Source: a virus
Strand: one strand, 5' to 3'
IMG/VR virus record: IMGVR_UViG_3300042549_002343
Location: 1 to 34,838 of that record
Length of the DNA stretch: 34,838 nucleotides
The notes under the pieces are model-generated. The model was given only the letters and a program-made list of their open reading frames with translations, was not told the DNA's origin and did no database searches. Position 1 is the first letter of the stretch; each line of letters begins with the position of its first letter. Positions 13,862 through 31,509 of the stretch are shown piece by piece. A program made the translations under genes and the position numbers.

Positions 13862-14631
13862 TGGCATTAATCGCAATGGCTGTGTATGACACAGTAGAAA
13901 ACCAAAGAAGTAAATACACCAAAGAAACAATTAAAAGTTTATTTGATACAGTTGACTTTAATATACACAGGTTAATAATAATTGATAACAATTCATGTAA
14001 AGAAACTAAAAAAATAATTAGTGAACTTTTAAAATATGTATATAAAAATATTCATGTAATAACCAACACCGAGAATGTAGGAACTGCAAAAGCAATTAAC
14101 CAAGCATGGGCATTAAGACAGCCAAATGAAACAGTTATCAAAATGGATAACGATGTTGTAATAAATAACTATGGTTGGGTAGAAGAAATGGAGTTAGCAA
14201 TGAAACTCGGTGGCTATGGTATATTAGGTTTAAAACGTAAAGACTTGATGCAATCACCAAACGCAAGTAACCATTGGAAAACTGAACTTAAAATGCTTCC
14301 ACACGAGAAAGGCGACAACTGGGTAGTAGTAGAAGAAAGTGCAGACATAATGGGAACAGTTCAAATGTTTCACCCTGAACTAATAAATAAAATGGGTGGG
14401 TTAATGCAAGCAGGTGTATATGGATTTGATGACACATTAGCCTGCATAAGAGCAATACTATTAGGTTATAAATTAGCATTCTTACCACATATTGACATTG
14501 ACCATATTGATGTTGGTGGCGATGCTTACACCGAATGGAAACGCAAATATGCAGGTGAAAAAATGGAAGAGTTTTATAAAATCAAAGATGGTTTAATAAA
14601 TGGCACAATACCAATAAAAGTACAACTATGA
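13861..14631 (+). CDS. Glycosyltransferase, GT2-like (GT-A fold)
   Basis: A 256-residue GT-A glycosyltransferase. IDNNS (41-45) and NVGTAKAINQA (72-82) form the nucleotide-sugar site. KMDNDVV (94-100) carries the metal-binding D-x-D (96-98). GFDDTLA (188-194) fits the catalytic-base region, and HIDIDHIDVGG (210-220) supplies a late His ligand. It has no membrane segment and is shorter than processive GT2 synthases, so it should transfer a single sugar. The acceptor is unknown. Second of three glycosyltransferase genes in a row of overlapping genes. Confidence 0.78.
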   Translation: MALIAMAVYDTVENQRSKYTKETIKSLFDTVDFNIHRLIIIDNNSCKETKKIISELLKYVYKNIHVITNTENVGTAKAINQAWALRQPNETVIKMDNDVVINNYGWVEEMELAMKLGGYGILGLKRKDLMQSPNASNHWKTELKMLPHEKGDNWVVVEESADIMGTVQMFHPELINKMGGLMQAGVYGFDDTLACIRAILLGYKLAFLPHIDIDHIDVGGDAYTEWKRKYAGEKMEEFYKIKDGLINGTIPIKVQL

Positions 14632-15263
14632 TAGTATTAACAGTAGCAGATAACAGAAGTAAATGTTTTCAGTTAGAACGAAGTTTAAATCACTTTGGTT
14701 GGCAGTATCATATAATTGAAGTAAACCAATGGCAAGGATTTGGAATGAAGTTAAACCGAACCTATGAATACTTAAAAGCAAACCCAACTATTAAAGATTT
14801 TATATTTGTAGATGCATACGATACATTCTTTTTAGATACACCTGCAAACACTAAACGTAAAATATATTGGAACTGCTTGTTTAATTCAGAAGTAAACTGC
14901 TGGCCTGATGAAAACCAATTATCTAAATACGAAGAACGTGAGCAATACACAAAACCAAATACAAAATTCAGATTCTTAAATAGTGGTGCTTATTATATGC
15001 AGTCAGAAACCTTTATAAAACTAATGGAATCAAAACAAATACACGACAGCGAAGATGACCAACGAATAGCAACTAAATGGCTACTTGACAATCCAAGCAT
15101 AGGTATTGACCACGATTGCAGAGTATTTCAAACATTATGTGGAATATTGCCAACAGACTACAAAATAGAAAACAATCAATTTATAACAAAAGATAACTTT
15201 AAACCAACAATAATTCATGGCAATGGCAAAGCAGATATGAATTTTATATATGAACTAATATGA
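14628..15263 (+). CDS. PLOD-like glycosyltransferase (lysyl-hydroxylase/galactosyltransferase type)
   Basis: A 211-residue protein resembling the glycosyltransferase part of procollagen galactosyltransferase/lysyl hydroxylase (PLOD) proteins: FVDAYDTFFL at 60-69 with a DxxD metal site (62-65), FLNSGAYYM at 116-124, DDQ at 143-145, DHDCRVFQTL at 161-170, and the final HGNG at 197-200. These motifs line up well with the family. It is the third distinct glycosyltransferase in the cluster, overlapping GT2 by 4 bp and the ParB-like gene by 4 bp. Targets could be virion proteins, a hydroxylated base, or host glycans; undecided. Confidence 0.72.
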   Translation: MIVLTVADNRSKCFQLERSLNHFGWQYHIIEVNQWQGFGMKLNRTYEYLKANPTIKDFIFVDAYDTFFLDTPANTKRKIYWNCLFNSEVNCWPDENQLSKYEEREQYTKPNTKFRFLNSGAYYMQSETFIKLMESKQIHDSEDDQRIATKWLLDNPSIGIDHDCRVFQTLCGILPTDYKIENNQFITKDNFKPTIIHGNGKADMNFIYELI

Positions 15264-16639: not shown

Positions 16640-17032
16640 ATGGCATACGACAAGACTAAAATATTCGAACAAGCAAAAGAAGCAATAGTAAAACATAAAC
16701 TATTCTTTGTTGAAGACATAGTTGCATTCTTACCAATAGCAAAAAAAACATTTTATGAATACTACCCAATTGATAGTAACGAATGTAACGAGCTAAAAGG
16801 TTTATTAGAAATAAATCGCATAACATTAAAAGTATCAATGCGTTCTAAATGGTACACATCAAACGCACCTGCTTTGCAAATGGCATTAATGAAATTAATT
16901 GCAACCCCTGAGGAACTTAAAAAGCTATCAATGACATTTGTTGAAAGTGAAAACACAAACAGAAATGAAAACTTTGATATAAGTAAACTATATGATAGCA
17001 AGGCACAAACCGATTTGGAATCAACTGAATAA
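16640..17032 (+). CDS. terS: Terminase small subunit
   Basis: A 130-residue protein whose N-terminal helix-turn-helix (FVEDIVAFLPIAKKTFYEYY at about 23-42) and following core (ELKGLLEINRITLKVSMRSKW) match small terminases of Bacteroidetes phages, ending with an acidic tail. It would bind phage DNA, start packaging and load the large subunit. It overlaps terL by 41 bp, the usual small/large order. The 56-bp AT-rich gap upstream is shared with the divergent tRNA promoter. Confidence 0.82.
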   Translation: MAYDKTKIFEQAKEAIVKHKLFFVEDIVAFLPIAKKTFYEYYPIDSNECNELKGLLEINRITLKVSMRSKWYTSNAPALQMALMKLIATPEELKKLSMTFVESENTNRNENFDISKLYDSKAQTDLESTE

Positions 17033-18203
17033 TGATACACGTTACTTTATTGTAACAGGTGGTAGGGGTTCGGGTAAGTCTTTTGAGATAGGTAGGTTCG
17101 CATCACTTCTAAGTTATGAACGTGGGCATCGAATATTATTTACAAGGCAAACCATGACAAGTGCGCACCTATCTATTATTCCTGAATTTCAAGAAAAAAT
17201 TGAACTGCTAAATTTAGAACACGATTTTGAAATATTAAAAAGTGAAATAAAAAACAAACAGTCAGGTAGTGAAATATTATTCAAAGGTATAAAAACATCA
17301 AGCGGTGACCAAACAGCTAACTTAAAATCATTGCAAGGGGTTACAACATGGATATTAGATGAAGCAGAAGAATTAGTTGATGAGAAAACATTTGATAAAA
17401 TAAACCTATCAATACGACAAAAAGGTAAAAAGAACCGAATAATATTAATCTTAAACCCTGCAACAAAAGAACATTGGATATACAAGAAGTTTTTTGAAGA
17501 ACGAGGTGTTATAGAAGGATATACTGGCATACATCAAGATGCAACATATATTCATACTACCTACATAAATAACCTTGAAAACCTTGATGAATCATTTTTA
17601 AACGAGATTGAACGAATAAGAGAAAACAATCCTGCTAAATACAAACATATAGTATTAGGTGGGTGGGTAAACAAAGCAGAGGGTGTAGTATTTACTAATT
17701 GGACATTTGGAGAATTTAACCCACATGGATTGCAAACTTCATTCGGTTTGGATTTTGGTTTTAGTATTGACCCTGATGCATTGAGTGAAGTAGCTATTGA
17801 CAAAGTACGAAAGATAATATACGTTAAAGAACACTTATACAGTAATGGTTTAAAAACCCACGTATTAAGCGGTATATTGAAAGATAGAACACAAGGCAAG
17901 GTAATCATAGCAGATAGCGCAGAAGACCGTTTAATAGCAGATTTAAAGCATGCAGGTATAAATATACGAGCAGTAAAGAAAGGAACGATTGAAAGTGGTA
18001 TAATACGAATGCAGAACTATAATATCATAGTAGAGCCAAACAGCCACAATATAGCAAAGGAATTAAACAACTATGTGTATGCAGACAAAGCAAGCCATAT
18101 GTATATTGACAATTGGAATCACATGATTGATTCAATTAGGTATAATGTAATATTCCAACTTGACAACCCAAGTGCAGGTAGGTACGCAACAATGAAAATT
18201 TAG
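16992..18203 (+). CDS. terL: Terminase large subunit
   Basis: A 403-residue packaging motor. ATPase part: Walker A GGRGSGKS at 23-30, Walker B TWILDEAEE at 119-127 with catalytic Glu, and the coupling motif LILNPAT near 152-158. Nuclease part (RNase H-like): GLDFGFSIDPDA at 252-263 with D254, IADSAED at 306-312, and MIDSIRY at 378-384 with D380. Length and order are typical of PBSX/Terminase_6-type enzymes. The circularly permuted ends of this assembly fit headful packaging, though that is not proven. Its stop codon overlaps the AGCAAA box of the first late-promoter candidate. Confidence 0.92.
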   Translation: MIARHKPIWNQLNNDTRYFIVTGGRGSGKSFEIGRFASLLSYERGHRILFTRQTMTSAHLSIIPEFQEKIELLNLEHDFEILKSEIKNKQSGSEILFKGIKTSSGDQTANLKSLQGVTTWILDEAEELVDEKTFDKINLSIRQKGKKNRIILILNPATKEHWIYKKFFEERGVIEGYTGIHQDATYIHTTYINNLENLDESFLNEIERIRENNPAKYKHIVLGGWVNKAEGVVFTNWTFGEFNPHGLQTSFGLDFGFSIDPDALSEVAIDKVRKIIYVKEHLYSNGLKTHVLSGILKDRTQGKVIIADSAEDRLIADLKHAGINIRAVKKGTIESGIIRMQNYNIIVEPNSHNIAKELNNYVYADKASHMYIDNWNHMIDSIRYNVIFQLDNPSAGRYATMKI

Positions 18204-18235
18204 CAAAAAAGTAAAAAATTTATATATTAAATAGA
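18202..18235 (+). promoter_or_regulatory. Phage-specific promoter candidate 1
   Basis: AGCAAA (18202-18207) and TTATAT (18220-18225) are exactly 18 nt apart start to start, and the ATG lies 16 nt after the start of TTATAT. The same AGCAAA, spacing and TTATAT-box-to-start distance occur at 25276 and 28516. Between box and start codon the sequence ends in ATAGA. If the box is a -7 element, the mRNA would begin within a few bases of the ATG (near leaderless). It precedes the chaperone gene, the first tail gene after terminase. Confidence 0.65.
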
Positions 18236-18838
18236 ATGAAGTTTGAGAAAATAACCATTAGCCAGTTTATCAAATGCAAAACAATTGCAGAACTTGAAAC
18301 AGACCCATTGAACCGAAACATTAAATTGTTAGCTGAATTAACTAACAAAACTTTTGATGAAATTGAATCAATGCCAATTGAACAGTTAACGAAATCATTA
18401 AAAGCATTTAGTGAAATAGAGAACCTAAATCCAAATGCAAGAGTTAAAATGGATTTCAAAGTTAAGGGTAGAAGGTTTAAATGTATTTGGCAAACTCAAA
18501 AGTTAAAGGCAGCACAGTACATTGATGCAACTTCGTTCTGTAAAGACGAGGCGAATATCATAAACAATATTCATAATATACTTGCAGCGATTTGTGTTGA
18601 AAAGAATTGGTATGGTAAAGTAAAAAAATACGATGGTGCGAATCATAAAGAGGTTGCAGACTTGTTTTTAAACCACATGAAAATAGAGCAGGCTTATCCT
18701 ATCATGCTTTTTTTTTGCAGGTACTACAAGGAATTAGCCGACAATATCCTAATCTATTTGGAATCGGAAGCGGAGAAAGCACTGGCGAAAGTGAAGCCAA
18801 TATTGGACAAACATTCGAAACTAAATGGGGTTGGATAG
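18236..18838 (+). CDS. Tail assembly chaperone-like protein (G-like, zero-frame product)
   Basis: A 200-residue protein with a helical, acidic N-terminal half (AELTNKTFDEIESMPIEQL) and the middle part FKCIWQTQKLKAAQYIDA. It is not recognised by motif, but its position, length and overlapping -1 frame match phage tail chaperones (lambda gpG type). At codons 158-160 (Leu-Phe-Phe) the gene runs through nine Ts (18708-18716), a T-TTT-TTT slippery site. Beyond it, the zero frame adds 40 codons, ending KLNGVG. Expected to bind the tape measure protein. It is the first gene after promoter candidate 1. Confidence 0.65.
   Translation: MKFEKITISQFIKCKTIAELETDPLNRNIKLLAELTNKTFDEIESMPIEQLTKSLKAFSEIENLNPNARVKMDFKVKGRRFKCIWQTQKLKAAQYIDATSFCKDEANIINNIHNILAAICVEKNWYGKVKKYDGANHKEVADLFLNHMKIEQAYPIMLFFCRYYKELADNILIYLESEAEKALAKVKPILDKHSKLNGVG
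18709..18715 (+). promoter_or_regulatory. Programmed -1 frameshift slippery site (T7 within T9)
   Basis: Bases 18708-18716 are nine Ts. In the zero frame the codons are CTT TTT TTT TGC, so T-TTT-TTT is a perfect X-XXY-YYZ heptamer (18709-18715). A one-base slip back continues in the frame that encodes the WGW-containing C-terminal domain and stops at 18987. RNA polymerase slippage on the T tract could give the same product. Confidence 0.65.
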
Positions 18839-18987
18839 TAGCTATAAACAACCTTGCAAACAACGATAGGAGTAAGTGGGAATACTTTGAAGATATGAAC
18901 ATAATTGAGTTCTTAAACACATTAGTATTTTACAAAGATAAAAGTGAAGATGATAAAATAAAATGGCAAGCGCAGCAACGAACATAG
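18715..18987 (+). CDS. Chaperone C-terminal (T-like) domain, made by -1 frameshift
   Basis: This frame overlaps the chaperone gene and has no good start of its own (a TTG at 18715 on the slippery run). By a -1 shift it would add 90 residues to the first 160 of the upstream protein, giving a 250-residue fusion. It contains TKWGWIVAINNLANNDRSKW and MNIIEFLNTLVFYKDKSE, the conserved C-terminal part seen in Bacteroidetes phage proteins at this place. Its end overlaps the start of the next gene by 25 bp, as real genes do here. A homopolymer sequencing error is the alternative explanation for the break. Confidence 0.68.
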   Translation: MQVLQGISRQYPNLFGIGSGESTGESEANIGQTFETKWGWIVAINNLANNDRSKWEYFEDMNIIEFLNTLVFYKDKSEDDKIKWQAQQRT

Positions 18988-19556
18988 GCAATAAGTATGG
19001 CAGTTCATTAGATACCTTTACAAAGGATTTAAAGAGTGGTGTTGATGCTGTGTTCTTAAAGTGGGCTGAAGATTCTATTTTAATAATGTCAAATATTATA
19101 AAGAGTAAAGCAAGAACCAAGCAAGCGAGTACGTTAGCATCTGACTTATACCCTAATGTAATTGATAATGGAATACAAATAGTTACTACTCAAAATTATT
19201 GGGAGTTTGTCGATGAAGGTGTAAAGGGTGTATTTAACAAAGGTAAAGCACCAAATAGCAGGTTCAGTTTTAAAAACTTGGGAGTGCCAAAGGATATGCT
19301 AAATAGTTTTAAGCAATACATAGCACGAACAGGAAGCAAGGGGTTAAGGAAACAAAATTTAATCCGAAAGAATAAAAAGAAACAAGCAGACTTAATCACA
19401 AAGGAAGCAATGAGTATGGCAGTAGCAACCAAGATAGGTGGAATAAAACCAATGAACTATGTTGAGCCTGCAGTAGGTGCTAAAAGATTAAAGATGTTAA
19501 ACAAAGCGCTATCAAAAGAAATGGCAGTAAAAATAAAATTAGCAATTATAAAGTAA
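18963..19556 (+). CDS. Structural protein, tail/neck-like (HK97 gp10-like by feel)
   Basis: A 197-residue protein with a helical N-terminus, then VTTQNYWEFVDEGVKGVF at about 77-94, and a basic, Lys-rich C-terminal half (RKQNLIRKNKKKQADL). The 'Y..FVD.G..G' pattern with basic helices recalls phage neck/tail-completion proteins (HK97 gp10 type), but the match is loose. It overlaps the frameshift product and lies before the tail genes, so a virion role is likely. Exact place in the particle unknown. Confidence 0.55.
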   Translation: MASAATNIGNKYGSSLDTFTKDLKSGVDAVFLKWAEDSILIMSNIIKSKARTKQASTLASDLYPNVIDNGIQIVTTQNYWEFVDEGVKGVFNKGKAPNSRFSFKNLGVPKDMLNSFKQYIARTGSKGLRKQNLIRKNKKKQADLITKEAMSMAVATKIGGIKPMNYVEPAVGAKRLKMLNKALSKEMAVKIKLAIIK

Positions 19557-19566
19557 TTATAAAATA

Positions 19567-20739
19567 ATGGCAATAACAATTATCACAACACCAAACGCAT
19601 TCATGGCAGCATTTAATCAAGTGCCATACACAGTTAGTTCGAACAACACTGCACAACCTAACTTTAACTTTATAGTTGATGTAAACCAAACAAGCGGAAC
19701 AGCAAACCCATTAGCAAGGTTAAAATACCCAGTGCAACCAAGTTCAGCACAATTAACTTTTGACATCGGTAACGTACTTGAAAACTATGTTAGCTACGAT
19801 TTTAATAATGTAGTAGGTGATGTTGGAACTAATACTAATTCAAGATTAAAGTATTATGTTGAGTTCAGAGAGTTGTACGATGTAAGTGGCATACCAACTT
19901 TAACAGGTGTATTGGCAACTAACCCAACAGGGCAAAGCGCATCAATATTTAAATTTGCAGCAAACGGAATATTTGATTTTGAAGACTTTACACCAACAGC
20001 ATATAGAAATTTAGATGTAAGTGGGTTTGGCTATTTATCAAATTCAGGTACAACCGAAAGAATAAACACAAATGAGGAAAGATTTTTATATTGGTTTGAC
20101 CCTTTAAGGTTAGTAGTAACAATTAGGTACGTGGATTCAGATAATACAAATGAAGATGTATCAATAAGTTTAGCAGCGCAAGAACATTTGTTTAGCATTA
20201 AGGCAGGTAAATATGCACAAGATGTAATGATGGGCGCAGGATTAAACATAACAAATACTTACAAAGTTCAATTATTAGGTGTTACAAATAACGTATTAGC
20301 AACTAAAACATTCAGTTTAAACACCGAATGCAGCCAATACCCAACAGTTAGGCTACATTGGTTAAATAAATTAGGCGGTTTTGACTCGTTTAACTTCAAT
20401 AAGAACACTATAAACGCAATGGACATCGAAAGAAAACAATTCAAAGCACCATTGCCAATAGGTTACAGCAAACAAGATAGGTTAAAAACCAACTACAACA
20501 CTACTATAAACGATAAAATAAGTATTAATAGTGATTGGATAACAGAACAAGAAAGCACATTACTTGAAGAATTAGCGACAAGCCCTGTAATATATCTTGA
20601 AAGAAGCGCAACGGAATTTGTAGCAGTAAACATAACCAATACAAGTTATGAAATAAAAACATTCTTAACTGATAGAAAACTATTTAACGTAACATTTGAC
20701 ATAGAATATACTTACTCACGTTACAGACAATCGCTATAA
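19567..20739 (+). CDS. Putative tail/baseplate structural protein
   Basis: A 390-residue protein, beta-rich and Asn/Thr-rich, without a signal peptide. It opens MAITIITTPNAFMAAFNQVP and continues with an immunoglobulin- or carbohydrate-binding-like pattern. Proteins with this start occur before the large tail protein in Bacteroidetes phages. Its TAATG junction with the 935-residue neighbour suggests a fixed ratio in the same structure, probably the tail tip. No enzymatic motif is seen. Confidence 0.55.
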   Translation: MAITIITTPNAFMAAFNQVPYTVSSNNTAQPNFNFIVDVNQTSGTANPLARLKYPVQPSSAQLTFDIGNVLENYVSYDFNNVVGDVGTNTNSRLKYYVEFRELYDVSGIPTLTGVLATNPTGQSASIFKFAANGIFDFEDFTPTAYRNLDVSGFGYLSNSGTTERINTNEERFLYWFDPLRLVVTIRYVDSDNTNEDVSISLAAQEHLFSIKAGKYAQDVMMGAGLNITNTYKVQLLGVTNNVLATKTFSLNTECSQYPTVRLHWLNKLGGFDSFNFNKNTINAMDIERKQFKAPLPIGYSKQDRLKTNYNTTINDKISINSDWITEQESTLLEELATSPVIYLERSATEFVAVNITNTSYEIKTFLTDRKLFNVTFDIEYTYSRYRQSL

Positions 20740-23546
20740 TGAATCAAAACAGATTAGTAATAAACCAAGTAGCAGGAGCGAACATAGTTGAATACGAACT
20801 TGATTTGTATGATGATGTACCTTTGCCAATAAACAAAAGTATAATTGATATTCAGAACATAGCTGAACGCAAAAGTGATTTTACTAAAACAATTACTTTG
20901 CCCGGCACACATAACAACAACGACATATTTAGTAACATATTTAATTTAGCACGTTCAGTAAGTAATACCAATACGTACAACTTTGCACCTGACTTTAACC
21001 CTAACTTAAAAGCAGATGCAATACTTTATAAGAATGGAATTGTAATGATTCAAGGGTATTTGCAGTTGACGAATATCAATATAATAGATGAATATCAAAT
21101 AGAATACGAGGTAATAATAATTGGTAGAACAGCTAACTTGTTTCAAGATTTAGGAGAAAAGAAATTAAACGAACTTGATTTAAGTGCTTATGACCATGAA
21201 TGGAACTTTGCTAACATTCAAACAAGTTGGACACCAAGCGCAACACGTGGATATTACTATGGATTAATTGACAAAGGTTTTAGTAATGACCAAAAAGGAT
21301 TCTTAACAACTGACCAAAAGCCACAAATATTTGCACGAACAATAGTAGATGCAATATTTAAGGATGCAGGATATAGGTACGCATCACTATTTTTAACAAG
21401 TGGAATATTTAACAAATTAGTAGTTCCAACAACACAAGACAAATTATTAATATCAACGCAAGAAGTAAGCGATAGAACGTTTAAAGGCGATAGAATAGTA
21501 GATAGTGCTTTTATACCATTAACAACATTATACACAGATGTGCCTTTTAATAATACTGGCAAACAATCAACACCTGCAGGATATGACCCTACAACATATG
21601 AGTTTACAGTTCAAAAAAATGGACACTATCAGTTTGGTTTAAATATAAATATGAACCTTAAAAAAACAGGCACAAGTTCTTTTTTGGTTTTAAATTTTGA
21701 TGTTTATAGAACAAGAAGCGGTGTAAGAACTTTAATGGGTTCAACAAGCACTCTTACTACTTCAATGACAGCAGACTTTACAATAAATAAATACTATGAA
21801 ACTAAAACATCTAATGATTGGTGTGAAGTAGGAGATGTTATTGAAGTGCAAATGATGACAATTGTTACAGGTAGTTGGGAATATAAGCTATTAACTAATT
21901 CATCATTTTTTTCAATTCCAAACCCACAAATATTTGTAGGTGATACAATGCAACTTGAAAACTGTTTGCCAAGTGATATTAAACAAACAGACTTTTTAGC
22001 ATCAATAATTAAGATGTTTAATTTGTATGTTTCAGTTGATGAGTTAGACAGCAAGAAATTAAAGATAGAACCAAGAGATGATTATTTTACGAGTGATGTA
22101 GTAGACTTAACAAACGACATTGATGTAAGCAGAGGTGTTGAAGTAAAGCCATTAGGTGATTTAAAATACAAAGACTATACTTTTGCTATGGCAGAGGATA
22201 AGGATGAGTTAAATGATGCCTATCAAAAGCAATACACTTATCCATATGGAACAAAAAGATATACAGTGCCAAATGACTTTATAACCGAAAGCTACAAAAC
22301 AGATGTATTGTTTGCCCCTACACCATTAGCAGCAGCAAAAGAAAACGCAAACGTAGTATTTAGCCAAATAATATTTAAGAACTCAAATGGTGAATCAATA
22401 GATAGCACATCAAAATTAAGGTTATTAGTTGCAGGTGGATTAAGTCCAGTGATAGGTACTAACTACTTTCATTATCTTGATGATAATGGCACAAAACATT
22501 ATTTTGATTCTTATGCTTATGTAGGTCACTACGATAATGTTTTAGCACCCACTTTTGATGTAAACTTTACAACACCGATTCAGCTATATTATAAGACTGC
22601 AATTCAAACTACTCAAACAAGTAATAACATTTATAATGTTTACCATAAAAAAGGTATTGAAGAAATCACAAACAAAGATTCTAAATTAGTAACTTACTAT
22701 GTTAAATTAAGTGAAGTTGAAATAAACAAACTATCATTTAGAAACTCTTATTTTATAGACAAACAATACTATCGTTTATACGAAATTGATTTTGATAGTA
22801 ACAGCGAAGACCCTGCAAAATTAACATTCTTAAAGTTAGCGGTTGCACCTGCATTTGTACCTTACAATTTAGTAACTAATGGTGGCGGTGGTGGTGAAGG
22901 TTCTGCATACGCACAAATAGCAAATAGAAACGGAACACAATACCCAAAAGGAGTTGATGTAATCGGTCAAGGGAGTGAAAACACATTACAAGGCTACGAA
23001 CAAATAGTAAACTCAACAGGTAACTTTGTAAACGCAAACCAAGTAAACATATTAGGTGGCGAAAATAACACAGTTCTAAACAACAATGTAACATTAATCA
23101 ATACAAATGATTACACAAGTATTAGAGATGGCGAAGTAATAATAAATAACATACACCAACCATATTATGCAAGTCGTGTTTTAACAGTTGCAGAACTACA
23201 AGCATTACACTCAACACCGATTCAAATATTAGCAGCACAAAGTGGTTATTGGATTGAAGTATTTAGAGCATACATAACAGTATTTTTTGGCACTACAACA
23301 CCACCAACAGGATATACAAGAAGAGTATTATCACTTGAATTTGCAGGAGACGGAACACACCTTGCAGAGTTTGATAATAGCATAACAACTGTAACAACTG
23401 CAACTATGCAACGTGCAAGAAATATAAACGACACAGTGTTTAAAGATTTGGCAGTAAACATAAACGCATCAGGGAATTTAGGAGCAGCAGGAAACAGTCA
23501 AATGTTAATAGAATTAGAATACAGATTACACCCAATTATACAATAA
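20739..23546 (+). CDS. Large tail protein with C-terminal adhesin-like region
   Basis: The largest protein, 935 residues. The N-terminal part (about 1-150; DLYDDVPLPINKSI, then RKSDFTKTITLPGT) matches the conserved N-terminus of Bacteroidetes phage tail-hub-like proteins. A long beta-rich middle follows. At about 715-721 a GGGGGEG linker leads to a region at about 740-800 with short Gly/Asn turns (GQGSENTLQGY, LGGENNTVLNNN), suggesting a beta-solenoid like phage fibres, then a compact C-terminal domain ending EYRLHPIIQ. It probably joins the tail tip with receptor binding. It lies directly before the tape measure gene. Confidence 0.65.
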   Translation: MNQNRLVINQVAGANIVEYELDLYDDVPLPINKSIIDIQNIAERKSDFTKTITLPGTHNNNDIFSNIFNLARSVSNTNTYNFAPDFNPNLKADAILYKNGIVMIQGYLQLTNINIIDEYQIEYEVIIIGRTANLFQDLGEKKLNELDLSAYDHEWNFANIQTSWTPSATRGYYYGLIDKGFSNDQKGFLTTDQKPQIFARTIVDAIFKDAGYRYASLFLTSGIFNKLVVPTTQDKLLISTQEVSDRTFKGDRIVDSAFIPLTTLYTDVPFNNTGKQSTPAGYDPTTYEFTVQKNGHYQFGLNINMNLKKTGTSSFLVLNFDVYRTRSGVRTLMGSTSTLTTSMTADFTINKYYETKTSNDWCEVGDVIEVQMMTIVTGSWEYKLLTNSSFFSIPNPQIFVGDTMQLENCLPSDIKQTDFLASIIKMFNLYVSVDELDSKKLKIEPRDDYFTSDVVDLTNDIDVSRGVEVKPLGDLKYKDYTFAMAEDKDELNDAYQKQYTYPYGTKRYTVPNDFITESYKTDVLFAPTPLAAAKENANVVFSQIIFKNSNGESIDSTSKLRLLVAGGLSPVIGTNYFHYLDDNGTKHYFDSYAYVGHYDNVLAPTFDVNFTTPIQLYYKTAIQTTQTSNNIYNVYHKKGIEEITNKDSKLVTYYVKLSEVEINKLSFRNSYFIDKQYYRLYEIDFDSNSEDPAKLTFLKLAVAPAFVPYNLVTNGGGGGEGSAYAQIANRNGTQYPKGVDVIGQGSENTLQGYEQIVNSTGNFVNANQVNILGGENNTVLNNNVTLINTNDYTSIRDGEVIINNIHQPYYASRVLTVAELQALHSTPIQILAAQSGYWIEVFRAYITVFFGTTTPPTGYTRRVLSLEFAGDGTHLAEFDNSITTVTTATMQRARNINDTVFKDLAVNINASGNLGAAGNSQMLIELEYRLHPIIQ

Positions 23547-25267
23547 TGGCAAACGAAAAAATAATATTTGACACCGAAGTAAAAGTAGGCAGTTCGGTAG
23601 GTTCAGTAAAAAGTTTAAAAGCAGAATTACGAGCAGTAACAAATGAACTACAAAACCTTGAAGAAGGTAGCGAAGCATTTATTACAGCAGCTAAAAAAGC
23701 AGGTACATTAAAAGATAGAATTGGTGATACTAAAGCAACCATTGATGCATTTAACCCTGAAAAGAAATTTCAAGCATTAGCAGGCGCAGTAGGTATAGCA
23801 GCAAACGGATTCAGCGCATTACAAGGTGCAATGGCTTTAATGGGTACTGAAAACGAAGAACTAAATAAGACTATTGCCAAAACACAAGGTGCAATTGCAT
23901 TAGCTACTGGTTTAAATGGTTTGCTTGGAATGGGTGATGCATTTAAGAACTTAAAGAACGTAGCAGGCGATGCACTAAAAGGAATTAAAGCAGGTATTGG
24001 CGCAACAGGAATAGGTTTATTTGTACTTGCAGCAGGTTTAATACTTTCAAATTGGGAAGCAATATCAAAAGCAATTAAAACATCATTCCCTATATTTAAT
24101 GATATGGGTAAAATATTTGATAAACTTCGTGAAGTAGCTTATGGTGCAGGTGAAGTTATTAAGAGTGCTATACTTATGCCTTTTAAAGCATTTAGTAAAT
24201 TAATACAAGGAGATTTCAAAGGTGCATTAGAAGAAATAAAAAACGGTTACAACATAGTAGGCAATTATAAAAAGGGTGCAGAAGCAGGAATAAAAGCAAA
24301 TGAAGAAGCAGCAGCAGCAGAAAAGTTAGACCGATTAATTAAGCAAAGAGAAAAAGAATTAGAAGTTGATAAGGCATCAGGAAAAGATACATATAAGCAA
24401 GAACTTGCATTAAACAAATTAAAGCAAGAAGCAGCAAAAGAAAATAAAGATGAACTTGAAAAATTAAGGCAAGAAGAAAGGGTTTTAATTGCAGCACATA
24501 ATAAAGTTTTATCAGATAAGGCAAAGGCAAAAGCAAAAGAGGATAAAAAGATTGCTGATGATAAAAAGGCTTACGATTTATCATTCGCTGAATTAGTAGA
24601 AGCACAAAGATTAAAAAATGTTGATGAGGATAAAAAGATTGCAGACATAAAAACTTTTAATGATGAGTTAGATTTAAAAAATGCAGAGGAAGCAGCAAAG
24701 AAACAAATTGAAATTGAAAAATATTTAAATGATACGAAGTTAGCAATTAAAACTACGTACTTAAATTCTGCAAGTGAAACAGTAAATGCTTTAAAAACAT
24801 TAGCAGGTGGTAATGAAGAACTACAAGCAGCAGCCTTAATAGCAGAAAGTGCAATTAGTATAGCAAAAATGATTATAGCAAACAATGCAGCAAATGTGGC
24901 TATCGTAGCACAAGGAGCGTCACTTGCAATTGTATCAGGTGGCGCATCGGTAGCAGCAGCAGCATCATTAGTAACAGCAAATAATATTTCAACTGCAATA
25001 GGTGTAGCGGCAACAATAGCAGCAACAGGAGCAGGGTTAAGTGCAATTGGTAAAAGTGGCGCACCGAGTGGAGGTGGTGGTGGAAATGTAACAGCACCAA
25101 GCGCACCAAGAATCCCACAATCAATTACAGGCACAAGATTAGGTGGCAACAGTCAAGTAACAACAACAGGCGATAGCACAGTAGGGAAAGTAATAGTAGT
25201 TGAAACAGACATAACTAATACACAAGATAAAGTTAAGAATATAATACGCAAAGCGACAATCAAATAA
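23546..25267 (+). CDS. Tail tape measure protein
   Basis: A 573-residue protein with typical tape measure features: a long helical, Ala/Lys/Glu-rich composition, GLF/GLIL hydrophobic segment at about 150-172 (GIGLFVLAAGLILSNW), charged coiled coil at about 250-400, then an Ala/Gly-rich hydrophobic stretch at about 415-510 and a Gly-rich end. At roughly 0.15 nm per residue it would give a tail of about 85 nm, suggesting a siphovirus. It lies downstream of the large tail protein instead of directly after the chaperone pair, an unusual order. Confidence 0.8.
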   Translation: MANEKIIFDTEVKVGSSVGSVKSLKAELRAVTNELQNLEEGSEAFITAAKKAGTLKDRIGDTKATIDAFNPEKKFQALAGAVGIAANGFSALQGAMALMGTENEELNKTIAKTQGAIALATGLNGLLGMGDAFKNLKNVAGDALKGIKAGIGATGIGLFVLAAGLILSNWEAISKAIKTSFPIFNDMGKIFDKLREVAYGAGEVIKSAILMPFKAFSKLIQGDFKGALEEIKNGYNIVGNYKKGAEAGIKANEEAAAAEKLDRLIKQREKELEVDKASGKDTYKQELALNKLKQEAAKENKDELEKLRQEERVLIAAHNKVLSDKAKAKAKEDKKIADDKKAYDLSFAELVEAQRLKNVDEDKKIADIKTFNDELDLKNAEEAAKKQIEIEKYLNDTKLAIKTTYLNSASETVNALKTLAGGNEELQAAALIAESAISIAKMIIANNAANVAIVAQGASLAIVSGGASVAAAASLVTANNISTAIGVAATIAATGAGLSAIGKSGAPSGGGGGNVTAPSAPRIPQSITGTRLGGNSQVTTTGDSTVGKVIVVETDITNTQDKVKNIIRKATIK

Positions 25268-25275
25268 TTCTAAAA

Positions 25276-25309
25276 AGCAAATAGTAAAATAATTTATATT
25301 TATAATAGA
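25276..25309 (+). promoter_or_regulatory. Phage-specific promoter candidate 2
   Basis: AGCAAA (25276-25281) and TTATAT (25294-25299), 18 nt start to start, with the ATG 16 nt after the start of TTATAT, as in candidate 1. The box continues TTATAATAGA before the ATG. It fills the 42-bp gap between the tape measure and the capsid operon, so it should start transcription of the head genes. Confidence 0.68.
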
Positions 25310-26287
25310 ATGGACAAATTACCTATTTACAGATTCATAGTTCTTGAGGATGACGAAGCGCAATTAGAAGCAGTTGCGTTTGTTGATGCTCCTGCAATAG
25401 AAATGAACTGGCAAGCATTTAGTTCTAATCAATACAAGTTTAAAGCAAACACTGAAAAACGTATTATATCTGGACCTTTAATGGTGGCAGAATTGCCAAT
25501 CTATCGCAGAACGGAAGAGGGTGAATATTATGGTGTGTTTCAAAAAGAAGACATTTATAATTTAAGAAACAAATTCTTTAAGCAAGGTAAATCAAATCTT
25601 GTAAATGAGATGCACAACAGCAACAAAATGATTGATGGTGTGTATATGATTGAATCATTTTTGATTGATGAAGAACGTGGAATATTAGCACCAAAAGGTT
25701 ATACCTTAACAGATGGTTCTTGGTTCGGTTCTTATAAAATTGATAACGATGAAGTTTGGAATGATTTTATAAAGTCAGGCGAGTTCAAAGGTTTTAGTGT
25801 TGAAGGAATATTTAACACAGTTAAGATAGATGAGAAGCCACAAACGGTTATAGATGAAATAATATCATTGATACATGAAGTTTTTGGAGGTCCAGGTTCA
25901 GGTCCTCAAGGTGGTGAAGGCAGTAACGTAGAAGTTAATATTGAAAACACAGGAGACGGTCAATTTAAATATTATGTTCAAGATAAAGACGGAAATGAAG
26001 TAGGTAAATTAAGTGTTGATGTAGTTGATAGTAGTATTGTTATAGATAATATATTTGTTGATGAAAATTCTCAAAAACAGGGTATAGCTTCACAAATGAT
26101 AGATAATGTAATTAGCAGTTATAAAGGTGAACAATATACTTATTATGATTATAATGACAACTTAATAAATGAACCATATAAAATAGAAATGGGTATGAGG
26201 GTTTCCGATGCAGGTCAAGCCTTATATCTTAAAAATAAAAGTAAAATTGACGATTTTAATAATTCTCAATCAAAATTAAATAAATAA
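25310..26287 (+). CDS. Prohead protease (XkdF-like) fused to a GNAT-like domain
   Basis: A 325-residue, two-domain protein. Residues 1-175 match XkdF-type prohead proteases: SGPLMVAELPIYRR (54-67), MHNSNKMIDGVYMIESFLID with H102 (101-120), GSWFGSYKIDNDEVW, and SGEFKGFSVEG (156-166) with catalytic S163. The linker FGGPGSGPQGGEGS (192-205) leads to a second domain (about 206-310) whose VIDNIFVDENSQKQGIASQM (244-263) is the acetyl-CoA-binding motif A of GNAT acetyltransferases in weak form (QKQGIA), followed by a strand and helix. The first domain would cut the capsid and scaffold; the role of the second is unknown. It follows late-promoter candidate 2. Confidence 0.75.
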   Translation: MDKLPIYRFIVLEDDEAQLEAVAFVDAPAIEMNWQAFSSNQYKFKANTEKRIISGPLMVAELPIYRRTEEGEYYGVFQKEDIYNLRNKFFKQGKSNLVNEMHNSNKMIDGVYMIESFLIDEERGILAPKGYTLTDGSWFGSYKIDNDEVWNDFIKSGEFKGFSVEGIFNTVKIDEKPQTVIDEIISLIHEVFGGPGSGPQGGEGSNVEVNIENTGDGQFKYYVQDKDGNEVGKLSVDVVDSSIVIDNIFVDENSQKQGIASQMIDNVISSYKGEQYTYYDYNDNLINEPYKIEMGMRVSDAGQALYLKNKSKIDDFNNSQSKLNK

Positions 26288-26293
26288 AAAAAA

Positions 26294-26890
26294 ATGAATA
26301 AACCCAAAAAAACTGCCAAAGAAGCCTTAATGGAAATTGGCAAATTATTAAAAATGGATTTTGCAAAAGTTGAGAAATTCAATAGCGCAAAATTAGCAGA
26401 CGGCACAGAAGTAATGTGGGACGGTGAATTATCAGAAGGAACAGCTATCATGGTTGTTGCAGAAGACGGAAACCAAATGCCTGCACCTGATGCTAAACAC
26501 GAGTTAGAAGATGGCACAATAGTAACCACAGTAGGTGGATTAGTAACTGCAATCGAACCTAAAAAAGAAAAAGAAGTTGAAGTAGAAGTTGAATTAGCTG
26601 AAATGCCTGACATGAAAATGATGGAAGAAAGAATGGCATCATGCGAAAGCAAAATGAAAGAAATGGAAACTAAAATGAATGAAATGTTTGCATCATACGA
26701 AAGTAAGTTTGCAGCAATTACAGAAAGCAACACAGCTAAATTTGCAGCAATAAACGCAATCGTAGAAGAAATTGCAGCAGAGCCAATAGTAGTAGTAGCA
26801 AAACCAACTAACTCAACATTCAGTAAAAAAGAACGTACAATGTCAACTATTGAACGTATCGCAGAATTCAAAAAATTACAAAACAAATAA
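26294..26890 (+). CDS. Scaffolding/prohead assembly protein
   Basis: A 198-residue protein directly before the major capsid gene. The middle (about 35-85; KLADGTEVMWDGELSEGTAI, then HELEDGTIVTTVGGLV) matches the core seen before capsid genes in Bacteroidetes phages. A Met/Glu/Lys-rich coiled coil follows (about 105-160), and a helical C-terminal tail (ERIAEFKKLQNK) suited to binding capsid. No protease motif. It is expected to be removed by the protease upstream. Confidence 0.75.
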   Translation: MNKPKKTAKEALMEIGKLLKMDFAKVEKFNSAKLADGTEVMWDGELSEGTAIMVVAEDGNQMPAPDAKHELEDGTIVTTVGGLVTAIEPKKEKEVEVEVELAEMPDMKMMEERMASCESKMKEMETKMNEMFASYESKFAAITESNTAKFAAINAIVEEIAAEPIVVVAKPTNSTFSKKERTMSTIERIAEFKKLQNK

Positions 26891-26913
26891 ACTAAAAACA
26901 AAAACTAAAAAAA

Positions 26914-27855
26914 ATGGCATTTAACGTAACAGCCTTAGCGGCATACACTAAAACCAATGAAAATTTATTGGTAACTCGTTCGTTTTTCGAACCTAAAACT
27001 GCATCACGTATGCAAATCTTAACAGGTGTTAAGTCAACTATTCAAGTACCTGCTTTAACCGATGCTTTAATTTGGCAAAATGGTGATGCTTGTGGATTTA
27101 GTGCTTCAGGTGACACAACTATTTCTGCTCGTGTTTTAACAGTAGGTAGAATCAAAGTAAACAAAGAATGGTGTATTAATGATTTAGAAACTAAATACAC
27201 TCAATTATTGTTATCTCCAGGTTCTAACTATGATGCGTTGCCAGGTGGTATTGATGCAGCATTCGTAGAAACTATTTTAGGAACTACAAAAGAAGATGTA
27301 GAGAAAGCAATTTGGAGAGGTGACACAGCAAGTACAAGTTCACAATTGAAGCAATTTGATGGTTTGGTAAAAATCATTAATGCAGCAAGTGGAACAGTAC
27401 AAGCAAACGCAACAGCATTTATTGCAACTGCAGTAACTGCAATCACAGCAGCAAACATTATCTCGGTAGTACAAGCAGTTTATTCAGCAATACCAGTTGA
27501 GATTTTAGACAAGACTGACTTGACAGTTTACATGGGTGTAGACAATTTCAGAACTTACCAATTAGCTTTAACAAATGCTAACTTGTTTAACTTCATTGCA
27601 ACTGATAATGCATTAGGACAAATGAAGATTCACGGAACAAACGTAAACATCGTTTCAACTCCTGGTCTTACATCAACCAACGCAATCTATGCTTTAAGAG
27701 ATAGCAATATGTTCTTGGGTGTTGATTTAGAAAACGAACAAGAAGACTTCAAATTCTGGTATTCAGAAGACTTCGATTTAGTTAGATTTAAATACAGAAC
27801 TAAATTAGGTGTTCAAGTTTCTCAAGTAGCAGAAATCGTTAAATTCACAATTTAA
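26914..27855 (+). CDS. Major capsid protein
   Basis: A 313-residue protein (MAFNVTALAAYTKTNENLLV at the start) with TIQVPALTDALIWQNGDACG at about 42-61 and WCINDLETKYTQLLL at about 88-102, the recurrent pattern of HK97-fold major capsid proteins in this phage group. The C-terminal part (YSEDFDLVRFKYRTKLGVQV) is typical of the last strand and E-loop end. No N-terminal delta domain is seen, in line with a separate scaffold upstream. A strong terminator follows, so its message level is set separately. Confidence 0.85.
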   Translation: MAFNVTALAAYTKTNENLLVTRSFFEPKTASRMQILTGVKSTIQVPALTDALIWQNGDACGFSASGDTTISARVLTVGRIKVNKEWCINDLETKYTQLLLSPGSNYDALPGGIDAAFVETILGTTKEDVEKAIWRGDTASTSSQLKQFDGLVKIINAASGTVQANATAFIATAVTAITAANIISVVQAVYSAIPVEILDKTDLTVYMGVDNFRTYQLALTNANLFNFIATDNALGQMKIHGTNVNIVSTPGLTSTNAIYALRDSNMFLGVDLENEQEDFKFWYSEDFDLVRFKYRTKLGVQVSQVAEIVKFTI

Positions 27856-27860
27856 TTCAC

Positions 27861-27894
27861 AAAAGGGTAGTAGCTAATAGTTGCTACCCTTTTT
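27861..27894 (+). terminator. Rho-independent terminator after the capsid gene
   Basis: AAAAGGGTAGTAGC (27861-27874) pairs with GTTGCTACCCTTTT (27880-27893), 14 bp with two G-T wobbles around the 5-nt loop TAATA, and ends in a T run to 27894. It begins 6 bp after the capsid stop. Partial read-through would feed the next gene. Confidence 0.88.
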
Positions 27895-27912
27895 AAAACC
27901 CAATTTAAAATT

Positions 27913-28431
27913 ATGGCATGCGCAATAGTAGCAGGATACAGTCTCGATTGTAAAGATACAGTTGGTGGTATTAAAAATTTATACATAACCGAACAAGCAA
28001 ACATTACAGCAGTAACTGAAAATGCAAGTGGTTTTGTAACAGCAATAACAAAGTCAGCAGGTAAAAAATATTTTACTTATGCTTTAGAGCCAAGAGGCGC
28101 AAATAGTACAACTAATAACATCAATACTGACCCTAAAATTGGAACAGTAGGTTATGAACAAACTATCGCAGCTACGTTCTTAAAAATGGCTTATGAAACA
28201 CAATTCAAACTACAACAAATTATCAAGAACAGAACTTCTATAATTGTTGAAATGAAAAGCGGTCAATACTTCTTATTCGGTTCATCATTCGGTATGGAAT
28301 GTACAGGCGGAACAGGAACAAGTGGTGCAGCATTAAATGAGTTCAATGGTTACTCTTTAACATTTGCAGGAATGGAAAAAACATTCTCACAAGAAGTTGA
28401 TGCTACAATTATAGCAGCATTGTTAGTATAA
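27913..28431 (+). CDS. Putative major tail (tube) protein
   Basis: A 172-residue protein. The opening GYSLDCKDTVGGIKNLYI (about 8-25), a Gly/Ser/Thr-rich middle, and the end GYSLTFAGMEKTFSQEVD fit a family found after the capsid gene in Bacteroidetes siphophages and widely called a major tail protein. Bracketed by two terminators, it should be expressed as an abundant separate unit, as expected for a tube subunit. A capsid decoration protein is the alternative. Confidence 0.65.
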   Translation: MACAIVAGYSLDCKDTVGGIKNLYITEQANITAVTENASGFVTAITKSAGKKYFTYALEPRGANSTTNNINTDPKIGTVGYEQTIAATFLKMAYETQFKLQQIIKNRTSIIVEMKSGQYFLFGSSFGMECTGGTGTSGAALNEFNGYSLTFAGMEKTFSQEVDATIIAALLV

Positions 28432-28466
28432 CATGTTAGTTTAAAATTCTTCATTGTTTTCATAGC

Positions 28467-28501
28467 AAAAAGCCAATCGATTAAGTTCGGTTGGTTTTTT
28501 T
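28467..28501 (+). terminator. Rho-independent terminator after the tube-like gene
   Basis: AAAAAGCCAATCGA (28467-28480) pairs with TCGGTTGGTTTTTT (28487-28500), 14 bp with two G-T wobbles and a 6-nt loop, with the T run continuing to 28501. It lies 35 bp after the stop of the tube-like gene and just upstream of promoter candidate 3. Confidence 0.88.
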
Positions 28502-28515
28502 GTTTTAGTTTATTT

Positions 28516-28548
28516 AGCAAACTTTTTAATTATTTATATTTAAGTATA
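28516..28548 (+). promoter_or_regulatory. Phage-specific promoter candidate 3
   Basis: AGCAAA (28516-28521) and TTATAT (28534-28539), 18 nt apart as in candidates 1 and 2. The following TTAAGTATA leads to a GTG start 15 nt after the start of TTATAT. It comes right after a terminator (28467-28501), so a new transcript has to begin here to express portal and connector genes. This makes the promoter reading strongest at this site. Confidence 0.72.
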
Positions 28549-28968
28549 GTGATAAGATTCTTAAAAAATAGCACGAACAATGTAGTAGTAACATTAACTG
28601 AAAATTCAACAGTTACAAATCCTATTTATTTGTTTTTATTTACAAACCAAACATCAAATGTGCCTTATTATTTTATAGGTACTGATACAAGCGCATACAA
28701 AACACGATATAATAAGTTTAGTATAATTGAAAAGGTAAGTGCAAACACTTTAAATGGCGAAGTTACGTTAGGTTTTAAAGGCTATTATAACTATAAGGTA
28801 TATCAAACATCATTAGCGAATACAAGTGGGCTTACAACAGCAGCAGATGCAGTTCCTTATATAACAAAAACAGTTGAAGTTGGAGTTGTTGATGTGGTTT
28901 TGGATGCACAAACTACCACAGAATACGATGTACAAGATGAAACTAACATAATTTACCAACCACAATAA
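28549..28968 (+). CDS. Structural protein of the portal operon, unrecognised
   Basis: A 139-residue beta-rich protein that starts at GTG 28549; the frame has no nearby ATG, and the near-leaderless promoter fits this start. It contains FLKNSTNNVVVTLTENSTV at about 4-22 and YYNYKVYQTS near 84-93. This 'tail/head' type sits before portal genes in related phages and may be an adaptor or decoration protein. The final residues (ETNIIYQPQ) adjoin the portal start. Function unknown. Confidence 0.6.
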   Translation: MIRFLKNSTNNVVVTLTENSTVTNPIYLFLFTNQTSNVPYYFIGTDTSAYKTRYNKFSIIEKVSANTLNGEVTLGFKGYYNYKVYQTSLANTSGLTTAADAVPYITKTVEVGVVDVVLDAQTTTEYDVQDETNIIYQPQ

Positions 28969-30777
28969 ATGGCATATACAGATAAGACTATTAGAATCGG
29001 GTTTAGTAATGACAAAGTTCCAATGTTTGTGGAACAAAAGTCAAAAGTATGGGTTAAATATGGTGAAGAAAACAACTACCCTCAATACCTTGTACTATTA
29101 TTTAATAGAAGTGCAAAGCATAACGCAATAGTAACAAGCAAACAACTATATATTAGCGGTAAAGGTTGGCAATTTGACCAAACAGAAATGCAAGGTGAAG
29201 AAGTTATTGCACTACAATCATTTATTGATAACCCTAACCAGTACGAAACACTAAACGATTTAGCTAAAAAAACTATTTTAGACAATGAATTATTTGGTGG
29301 TTGCTATATTAAAGTAGTAGGTACAAAAGGAAAAAAAGGACAAGAACTTTACCACATTGATTATTGCACAGTTCGTAGTAATGAAGATAACACAGAGTTT
29401 TATATAAGCGATGAATGGATAGATGAAAGCGGTTATGAAAATACTGTGCCATTATTTACTACTTTACCTGCTTATGACCCAAATGTAAAACAAGCAGAAT
29501 CTATTTATTACTATAAGAGTTATAGACCTAATTTAAATACTTATACTTTACCTGATTACATTGGGGCAGTTCCTGCAATCATAACAGATGCAGAAGTAGC
29601 AAACTATCATAGAGCAGAAATACAAAATAGCTTTAAAGGTAGTAAGATGATTACTTTTGTTAATGGCATACCAAGCGATGATGAAATGAAAGCTACTGAA
29701 CGCAAGTTAAAGAGCAAATTTACATCAACAGACAGCGCAGGTTCGATAGTTGTAGACTTTGCAGATGATAAGGACAGAGTAGCAATTATAAATGATTTAA
29801 GCGCAGGTGATTTCGCAGATAAATACACAGCCTTAAACGATACAATACAACAAGAAATATTTGTAGGACATAAAGTAACTTCACCAATGATATTTGGTGT
29901 AAGAGTAGCAGGGCAATTAGGTGGCAGAGCAGAAATGATTGATGCTTTTAACTTATTTACAAATACTTATGTAGCACCAAGACAAGAAGTTCAAGAACAA
30001 ATTTTTAATATTTTCGCACCAGTAAAAGGCAAGTTAAAGATTAAACAACTTGAACCTATTATGCCAAGTTTCACCGAGCAAACACTAACACAAATTTTAA
30101 CCAAAGATGAGTTACGTGAAATAATTGGTAGAAAACCATTAGAGCCAACACAAGTAGTTCAAGCACCTGCTGCTTTTAAATTTAGTAAACAAACAAGAGA
30201 TTTAATAGATTACGAAACATTCTCAAAGTATGGCGAAAGTGTAGAAAACTTTCAACTTGTAAAAACTAAAAAAGTAATGTTCGGCAAAGAAGATTTTATT
30301 TCTAAAATTGAACAAGGAATACTTGACTTAATTAAAAAGACTCCAGACATAACTATTGAAAGTTTAATGGAAGTAATGAAGTTAGATAAAACCAAAGTTA
30401 GCGATGCAATAGAAACTTTAATCGGTGATGGTTTAATTGACAAAAACTTAAAAATAACTACCAAAGGCGAAAACAAAAACGTACCAACTTTTAGCGAATT
30501 GTTTATACGTTACAAATATGCTTTAAGAAGTGATGCACCTGCTTTAATTAGTGGTGGTGAAAGTAGAGATTTTTGCGCAGCAATGATGGCTAACCCACGT
30601 TACTTTAGCAGAGAAGATATAGAAAACATTGGTAAAGATTTAGGGCAAGTTTATGACATTCCAAACTACGATGCATTCAGGCGCAGGGGTGGTTGGTATC
30701 ATGACCCAATTCAAGATGTAAACTTACCATATTGCAGACATATTTGGGTTCAAGAATTAGTTAAAAAAGTTAAATAA
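28969..30777 (+). CDS. Portal protein with winged-helix and CRHxW C-terminal domains
   Basis: A 602-residue portal protein. The N-terminal about 400 residues carry the portal pattern (VWVKYGEENNYPQYLVLLFN; GKGWQFDQTEM; HRAEIQNSFKGS; LKIKQLEPIMPSFTEQT). About 433-500 is a winged-helix-like insertion (ILDLIKKTPDITIESLMEV, then TKVSDAIETLIGDGLIDK). Residues about 500-602 hold ISGGESRDFCAAMMANPRYF, RRGGWYHDP and PYCRHIW (587-593), a Cys/His site like that of phage minor head proteins (Mu gpF-like). Fusion of portal and minor-head-like domain is seen in this phage group. It would form the DNA channel and connect the head. Confidence 0.8.
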   Translation: MAYTDKTIRIGFSNDKVPMFVEQKSKVWVKYGEENNYPQYLVLLFNRSAKHNAIVTSKQLYISGKGWQFDQTEMQGEEVIALQSFIDNPNQYETLNDLAKKTILDNELFGGCYIKVVGTKGKKGQELYHIDYCTVRSNEDNTEFYISDEWIDESGYENTVPLFTTLPAYDPNVKQAESIYYYKSYRPNLNTYTLPDYIGAVPAIITDAEVANYHRAEIQNSFKGSKMITFVNGIPSDDEMKATERKLKSKFTSTDSAGSIVVDFADDKDRVAIINDLSAGDFADKYTALNDTIQQEIFVGHKVTSPMIFGVRVAGQLGGRAEMIDAFNLFTNTYVAPRQEVQEQIFNIFAPVKGKLKIKQLEPIMPSFTEQTLTQILTKDELREIIGRKPLEPTQVVQAPAAFKFSKQTRDLIDYETFSKYGESVENFQLVKTKKVMFGKEDFISKIEQGILDLIKKTPDITIESLMEVMKLDKTKVSDAIETLIGDGLIDKNLKITTKGENKNVPTFSELFIRYKYALRSDAPALISGGESRDFCAAMMANPRYFSREDIENIGKDLGQVYDIPNYDAFRRRGGWYHDPIQDVNLPYCRHIWVQELVKKVK

Positions 30778-31378: not shown

Positions 31379-31509
31379 TGAAAACAAAAATTAAGAACGA
31401 ACAAAAGTTACAAAAATTTATAAAAGAAAATGCAATTTTACACACTCAATCAAATAATAAACCTGTTCGAAACAATAGCGACAAACCACGCACAGATAAA
31501 CGGATTTAA
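31378..31509 (+). CDS. Small hypothetical basic protein (43 aa)
   Basis: A 43-residue, Lys/Asn-rich frame (MKTKIKNEQKLQKFIKENAI at the start) that begins with a TAATG junction to the connector gene and overlaps the start of the next gene by 80 bp. The long overlap and plain composition make it less certain; the neat junction is the only positive sign. Confidence 0.3.
   Translation: MKTKIKNEQKLQKFIKENAILHTQSNNKPVRNNSDKPRTDKRI

Follow-up and report, generated by a model that had tools for sequence, protein, structure and literature searches.

Candidate phage-specific late promoters and a putative sigma factor reader in an IMG/VR virus record and its relatives

The late promoters of phage T4 (TATAAATA) are read by the phage sigma factor gp55 together with the host core RNA polymerase, and the middle and late genes of phage SPO1 are controlled by a sigma cascade that comprises gp28 and gp33-34. 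Both systems are relevant to the DNA described here, the 34,838-base IMG/VR virus record IMGVR_UViG_3300042549_002343 (called the window, by which the whole stretch is meant). In it the spaced box pair AGCAAA-N12-TTATAT precedes the first gene of three structural operons, and the open reading frame (ORF) at 11847 encodes a small sigma-like protein. The three elements are likely to form one phage-specific late promoter class, used by the host core polymerase with the 11847 protein as sigma factor and giving rise to leaderless or nearly leaderless mRNAs.

The system proposed here resembles that of T4 in its small phage sigma-like protein, its dedicated late promoter class and its use of the host core polymerase. 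However, T4 relies on a -10 box only and needs gp33 and gp45, while here a protein that contains both region 2 and region 4 goes with a -35 and a -10 box, and the phages are relatives of flavobacterial ones. With SPO1 it would share a temporal cascade in which phage sigma factors displace that of the host, although SPO1 is a Bacillus phage with a larger cascade, and to our knowledge no leaderless rule is known for it. The extracytoplasmic function (ECF, group 4) sigma factors, such as E. coli sigmaE and Mycobacterium SigC, SigH and SigL, have the same two-domain sigma2-sigma4 layout and a similar box spacing, but the 11847 protein is phage-encoded, with no anti-sigma factor identified, goes with other promoter boxes and scores under the curated sequence cut-off. 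Among known phage-sigma schemes the present one would be unusual for its near-leaderless late operons and for the visible co-diversification of the site, and probably of its reader, across a phage group.

Among cultured phages, the nearest are the Nonlabens (Persicivirga) phages P12024S and P12024L, whose terminase is 68% identical to that of the window. P12024S gp33, encoded shortly before the terminase, is annotated as containing Sigma-70 region 2; it was found through this annotation only. The coding strand of P12024S contains six AAACAA...CGTTA pairs spaced 19–20 nucleotides (nt); the opposite strand has one match and the reversed control two. CGTTA lies 11–12 nt before the annotated starts of gp05, gp08, gp35, gp41, gp44 and gp45, and a variant precedes gp01. 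Thus P12024S is similar to the window in terminase, in the position of the sigma-like gene and in the repeated box pairs close to start codons, and differs in its boxes (AAACAA/CGTTA, against AGCAA/TATTTA in the window) and in the number of sites, about seven against three. The leaderless geometry is supported by this independent annotation, which also points to Bacteroidota as the probable hosts of the window's group. A literature search of incomplete coverage found no description of P12024S promoters; as the phage is in culture, the prediction is directly testable.

A preliminary description of the window had reported the three identical elements, and a scan of both strands of the whole window confirms exact copies at 18202, 25276 and 28516, all on the plus strand. 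There are none on the minus strand and none for a reversed-pattern control, while about 0.04 exact matches would be expected by chance for 12 fixed bases on both strands (own calculation from base composition). A weighted matrix scan finds three sites of at least 16 bits, where dinucleotide shuffles yield about 0.13 per strand, and no equally good match inside genes. When relaxed to two mismatches, the pattern occurs about as often as chance predicts (21 seen, 18.5 expected), and therefore only the strong form of the element is meaningful. All three box pairs sit on the coding strand, 33–34 nt from box start to start codon ahead of the first gene of a structural operon, and TTATAT begins 16 nt before ATG 18236, 16 nt before ATG 25310 and 15 nt before GTG 28549, in agreement with the 15–16 nt given earlier. 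The part that is conserved across relatives is AGCAA followed by a box with an invariant T-A core at offset 21–22. This shifts the TTATAT register first described: the probable -10 hexamer starts three bases further right, reading TATATT at 18223 and TATTTA at both 25297 and 28537.

18202-18236, plus strand: putative late promoter 1, with -35 box AGCAA(A) at 18202-18207, -10 region TTATATATT at 18220-18228, probable -10 hexamer TATATT at 18223-18228 and start codon at 18236; RNA start predicted on the plus strand at or at most 2 nt from 18235
25276-25310, plus strand: putative late promoter 2, with AGCAA(A) at 25276-25281, TTATATTTA at 25294-25302, probable -10 hexamer TATTTA at 25297-25302 and start codon at 25310; RNA start predicted on the plus strand near 25309
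28516-28549, plus strand: putative late promoter 3, with AGCAA(A) at 28516-28521, TTATATTTA at 28534-28542, probable -10 hexamer TATTTA at 28537-28542 and GTG start codon at 28549; RNA start predicted on the plus strand near 28549

Two further kinds of match were set aside. The two-mismatch site at 31400, before gene 31430, was rejected as a fourth promoter as its AGCAA-like box is not kept in relatives. Degenerate matches, for example AGCAATCAAGAGAA...TTATATTGG, are found repeatedly among the relatives, in several of them at one position that appears to be coding; they lack a downstream start codon and were left out of the count.

Conservation upstream of homologous genes was assessed in about 180 relatives (given below by G and L numbers) obtained from portal, terminase and sigma searches of viral contigs, with these genes' start codons, at the three heads, as the only anchors. 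The element is kept by dozens of related viral contigs, including those in which the neighbouring DNA or the gene upstream has been exchanged. Almost every record with a downstream protein above about 52% identity has the box pair, which is maintained across lineages with just 53–70% identity in these proteins, while the bases between the boxes and the upstream DNA vary. In L081 and L082 the DNA upstream of the box is entirely unrelated and the promoter 1 element is intact. The element right after the terminase is also unchanged in the close relatives G002, G003, G007 and G009, in which the terminase large subunit is of a distant type (28% identity). In 12 genomes each matrix match above 15 bits precedes a start codon, generally with one match per late operon, and the start codon lies 33–34 nt from the AGCAA start in 51 of the 56 distinct sites with a start codon in range.

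Such a near-fixed distance would also be expected of a signal acting in the mRNA, akin to the A-rich, Kozak-like context upstream of Bacteroidota start codons, and upstream context does matter in Flavobacterium (PMC6847099). A translational role is nevertheless highly improbable. The second conserved box at -33, the rigid spacing between the boxes and the free spacer correspond to promoter geometry. The box pair is carried only by operon-head genes and is absent from internal genes of the same late operons, and a terminator-like hairpin stands ahead of the third site. Moreover, G004 (at 25444) and G005 (at about 21370, in the oriented genomes) have an extra copy of their lineage's own box pair inside the capsid operon, before the 26294-type gene, with the start codon about 44–46 nt from the box start, which corresponds to a leader of 10–13 nt. 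The pair is therefore the unit, and does not by itself dictate how far away the codon lies.

Lineages differ in the -10 half, which is uniform among the copies of a genome except at the first site of the window group, where TTATATATT stands in place of TTATATTTA. The box is TTATATTTA in the window group and G004, TTATACTAAT in G005, TTATATTATA in G011 and (A/T)TCTATTTG in G006. For five lineages and three heads, the -10 boxes have an identity of 0.95 within genomes, against 0.71 when the same head is compared between lineages, and shuffling of lineage labels reaches the observed concertedness in 2 of 20,000 permutations. AGCAA is identical in all 15 of these copies, and the spacer between the boxes shows no concerted within-genome pattern among them. 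With heads set by homology alone, the window's head-to-head similarities rank 2, 3 and 4 of 1,577 gene pairs. Joint change of copies at separate loci implies one shared trans-acting reader.

Conserved spaced boxes can also be operators, and boxes alone are no proof of promoter activity; the elements might then bind a repressor of the phage or its host, or some other DNA-binding protein, and overlap promoters that escaped identification. There is little to recommend this explanation, as the elements lack dyad symmetry, have a single orientation relative to the gene, keep a fixed promoter distance and co-occur with a sigma-like protein.

In Flavobacterium promoters, the sigmaA -7 box spans -12 to -5 with the RNA start 4–5 nt after it (PMC6847099, PMC9723704), the terminal G of TAnnTTTG is nearly invariant and the -33 boxes are weakly defined (PMC6847099). 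The preliminary description had pointed out that the window's boxes differ from the host TTTG/TAnnTTTG, and this is borne out: the window sites (TATATATT, TATATTTA and TATATTTA) lack the terminal G, and AGCAA occupies the place of the Bacteroidota -33 TTTG in all copies. The elements could still be ordinary sigmaA promoter variants with TATATTTA as a weak -7 box, expressed late through another phage factor that binds AGCAA as an activator site. TATATTTA agrees with TAnnTTTG except for its last base, the G006 box TCTATTTG keeps the terminal G, and the weak definition of the host -33 boxes is compatible with this explanation. It is nonetheless improbable, as the nearly invariant base is missing from three of the three window sites, and the -10 boxes of other lineages (TATACTAA, TATTAT, CGTTTA and CGTTA) are far from TAnnTTTG yet uniform within a genome, which a fixed host sigma factor would not drive. 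A CGT -10 box is, in addition, taken as a mark of ECF sigma factors (PMC9723704). Motif SM6 of Flavobacterium psychrophilum (PMC9723704) has such an ECF-type CGT -10 box, as do several distant phage lineages, but it belongs to a host regulon, and the window's own class is without CGT. Lineage-specific -10 boxes that agree within a genome, at a fixed promoter geometry, are not easily accounted for by any of the three alternatives. Scans for host-type promoters add little: with 57 matches where 68.6 are expected, TAnnTTTG shows no enrichment in the window, for which reason no claim is made on mapped early promoters, and a scan of the window for E. coli-type promoters was uninformative (81 found, 80.1 expected).

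The near-leaderless geometry proposed in the preliminary description is retained. At the sites with 33–34 nt spacing the start codon is 12–13 nt from the start of the -10 hexamer, which was scored as leaderless-type placement (about 10–12 nt); in most other lineages this distance is 11–14 nt. Reading TATATTTA in the Flavobacterium -7 register would place +1 0–4 nt before the start codon, and aligning the invariant T-A with the CGT of other lineages would place it at offset 33, on or adjoining the codon, so that both registers predict a leader of 0–4 nt.

The candidate reader is encoded upstream of the late region.

11847-12338, plus strand: ECF-like sigma factor with regions 2 and 4 only, 163 amino acids, TTG start, N-terminus uncertain; proposed reader of the three promoters

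Homologs of the 11847 protein with 40–98% identity occur in the element-bearing records long enough to contain the gene, and 37 viral contigs have one. The shorter fragments G008 and G010 contain elements and no 11847 match, and element-free relatives have no homolog except for one 27% match. The best family member matches the ECF sigma profile TIGR02937 with 1.9e-10 and the window protein with 3.3e-7, and family members also match PHROG sigma families. The AlphaFold2 model consists of two helical parts, with four N-terminal and four C-terminal helices joined by a low-confidence linker; almost all of its fold matches are sigma factors, with ECF sigma factors matched over both parts, and its region 2 aligns to SigC at 3.0 Å over 65 residues. 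By this model the protein would possess regions 2 and 4 only, and its length is within the 150–200 amino acids or so of ECF sigma factors. The sigma-like factor mentioned in the preliminary description is thus conserved, ECF-like in profile and fold, and found together with the elements. In the homolog alignment the C-terminal region 4 helix ISYSALR-VK-K is invariant, paralleling the invariant -35 AGCAA, and the region-2 helix varies between lineages whose -10 differs, paralleling the variable -10. The TTG start has no upstream ATG in close relatives, and a 60% lineage begins with ATG about four residues in. A putative glycosyltransferase-like ORF block (12298-15263) follows the sigma-like gene with an overlap and is kept adjacent in relatives.

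The relatives that share mainly the terminase (62–76%) are without close 11847 homologs, and other ECF-like stretches are present in 16 of the 23 searched, the window apart, although weak in several. At the homologous heads of these distant lineages the box pairs are AACAA/TCGTTTA in G018 and G024, AAACAA/ATTGTTAT in G019-G021, AACAA/TTTGTTT in G025, ACAA/TCAGTTAT in G015, AACAA/TACGTTTAT in G014 and AAATAA/TCTATT in G026-G029. The box named -10 starts mostly 13–14 nt (range 11–18) before ATG. A homology-based rank test puts G022, G025, G026 and G027 at ranks 1–4 and most other genomes at intermediate ranks; it shows no signal for G023, or for G019-G021, in which the gene used as first head is not the element-bearing one. 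G019-G021 (L281-L284, L301-L302) also contain a second near-identical block, AAATATGTTATTTT.TATTTGGATTTAT.CTATATTTG/ACATT-ATG, twice per genome before other genes; as it includes a TTTG/TAnATTTG-like pair, it may be a host-type early promoter near a start codon. The most diverged portal relatives, L067-L070 (36%), have no AGCAA upstream of the 25310- and 28549-type genes, and another block common to both heads, CTGCCACA..AT..G-ATG, is possibly another late promoter class.

Outside the viral contigs, an INPHARED nucleotide search with the late half of the window, an INPHARED protein search with 11847 (even at 0.01) and a search of bacterial genomes with the portal profile gave no match. The terminase profile found nine loci in bacterial genomes, mostly on contigs of metagenome-assembled genomes, and no clear concerted element was seen in four of them (L305-L308).

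In the favoured explanation, host sigmaA would read the early genes and the sigma gene, and the phage sigma factor would then direct the core polymerase to the three late promoters, in a two-step cascade. The host RNA polymerase core would carry the 11847 protein, region 4 of which would recognise AGCAA at about -33 and region 2 the TATTTA-type box at about -12 to -7. Transcription would begin at or a few nt from the start codon, and each structural operon would therefore open with a leaderless or nearly leaderless first gene. Late expression is suggested by the structural gene content of the operons.

Several points weigh against this explanation. It is based on sequence and fold comparison. 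Host sigmaA with a phage activator is a less probable candidate, as TATATTTA is one base off TAnnTTTG. The window protein scores 30.1 bits, below the curated TIGR02937 cut-off of 42.9, for which reason it is called ECF-like only, and it is below the Pfam sigma cut-offs as well. The AlphaFold2 model has moderate confidence (pLDDT 75, pTM 0.45), and none of its Foldseek matches passes 0.001. The co-occurrence of sigma factor and element follows phylogeny and is therefore not independent evidence in every genome. Concertedness is weak or absent in some distant lineages (G017, G023). The distant-lineage counts (three forward copies at genes in most of these lineages, with none on the other strand and none in the reversed control for G014-G024) describe rather than test, because the box patterns were defined after the sequences had been seen.

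Even so, the interpretation given in the preliminary description is supported; of the findings that it named as refuting, neither many equally good matches inside genes nor a lack of conservation in related genomes was observed. Phages of flavobacteria-like bacteria appear to carry their own sigma factor and about three matching promoters at the first codon of late blocks, and promoters that change together between lineages point to a self-contained late-gene control. It is somewhat probable that this small-phage group as a whole possesses co-diversifying pairs of ECF-like sigma factors and leaderless promoters at the same three heads, with at least eight specificities evolved in place and with leaderless late operons despite a leaderless minority in the hosts.

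A literature search, likewise incomplete in coverage, found no account of late promoters or sigma-promoter pairs in Bacteroidota phages; the promoter logic of these phages is almost undescribed in the literature searched, and their hosts have unusual promoters and no Shine-Dalgarno sequence. If correct, the explanation would define a switch for the late genes of a widespread group of aquatic phages, and provide a natural series of matched sigma/promoter pairs in which the -35 specificity is fixed and that of the -10 changes. Such pairs would be useful for understanding how sigma region 2 selects its box and as orthogonal expression tools in Bacteroidota. Leaderless initiation would be built into the phage structural genes, in hosts where very short leaders make up about 4–13% of messages: 3.7% of leaders are below 10 nt in B. 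thetaiotaomicron (PMC7366714), 5.5% are leaderless in F. psychrophilum (PMC9723704) and about 13% are 10 nt or less in F. johnsoniae (PMC6847099).

The genes and other features around the three promoters are as follows.

16992-18203: terminase large subunit, directly before late operon 1
18236-18838, plus strand: first gene of late operon 1, 200 amino acids, no family found, positioned after the terminase
25310-26287, plus strand: first gene of late operon 2, a Peptidase_S78_2-like head protease with a C-terminal GNAT domain, leading the capsid operon
28467-28500, plus strand: terminator-like hairpin of 14 pairs followed by a T run, between the capsid operon and late promoter 3, present in relatives
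28549-28968, plus strand: first gene of late operon 3, 139 amino acids, no family found, directly before the portal gene
28969-30777: portal gene, after the 28549 gene

Of the operon names given initially (chaperone/tail, capsid and portal), capsid holds by virtue of the 25310 protease and portal by position, while a family search returned no match for the products of the 18236 and 28549 genes, leaving the former with its post-terminase position only. The statement that the third element directly follows a terminator agrees with the hairpin. The GTG start of the 28549 gene is credible, since ATG occupies this position in L051 and L072. In several relatives (G001, G002 and G007) the protease ORF at the 25310-type position has only 193 amino acids, and the GNAT part therefore looks like a variable insertion or fusion. 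In G005, the intergenic gap immediately before the 27913-type gene of the capsid operon contains what looks like part of a tRNA gene with a CAT anticodon.

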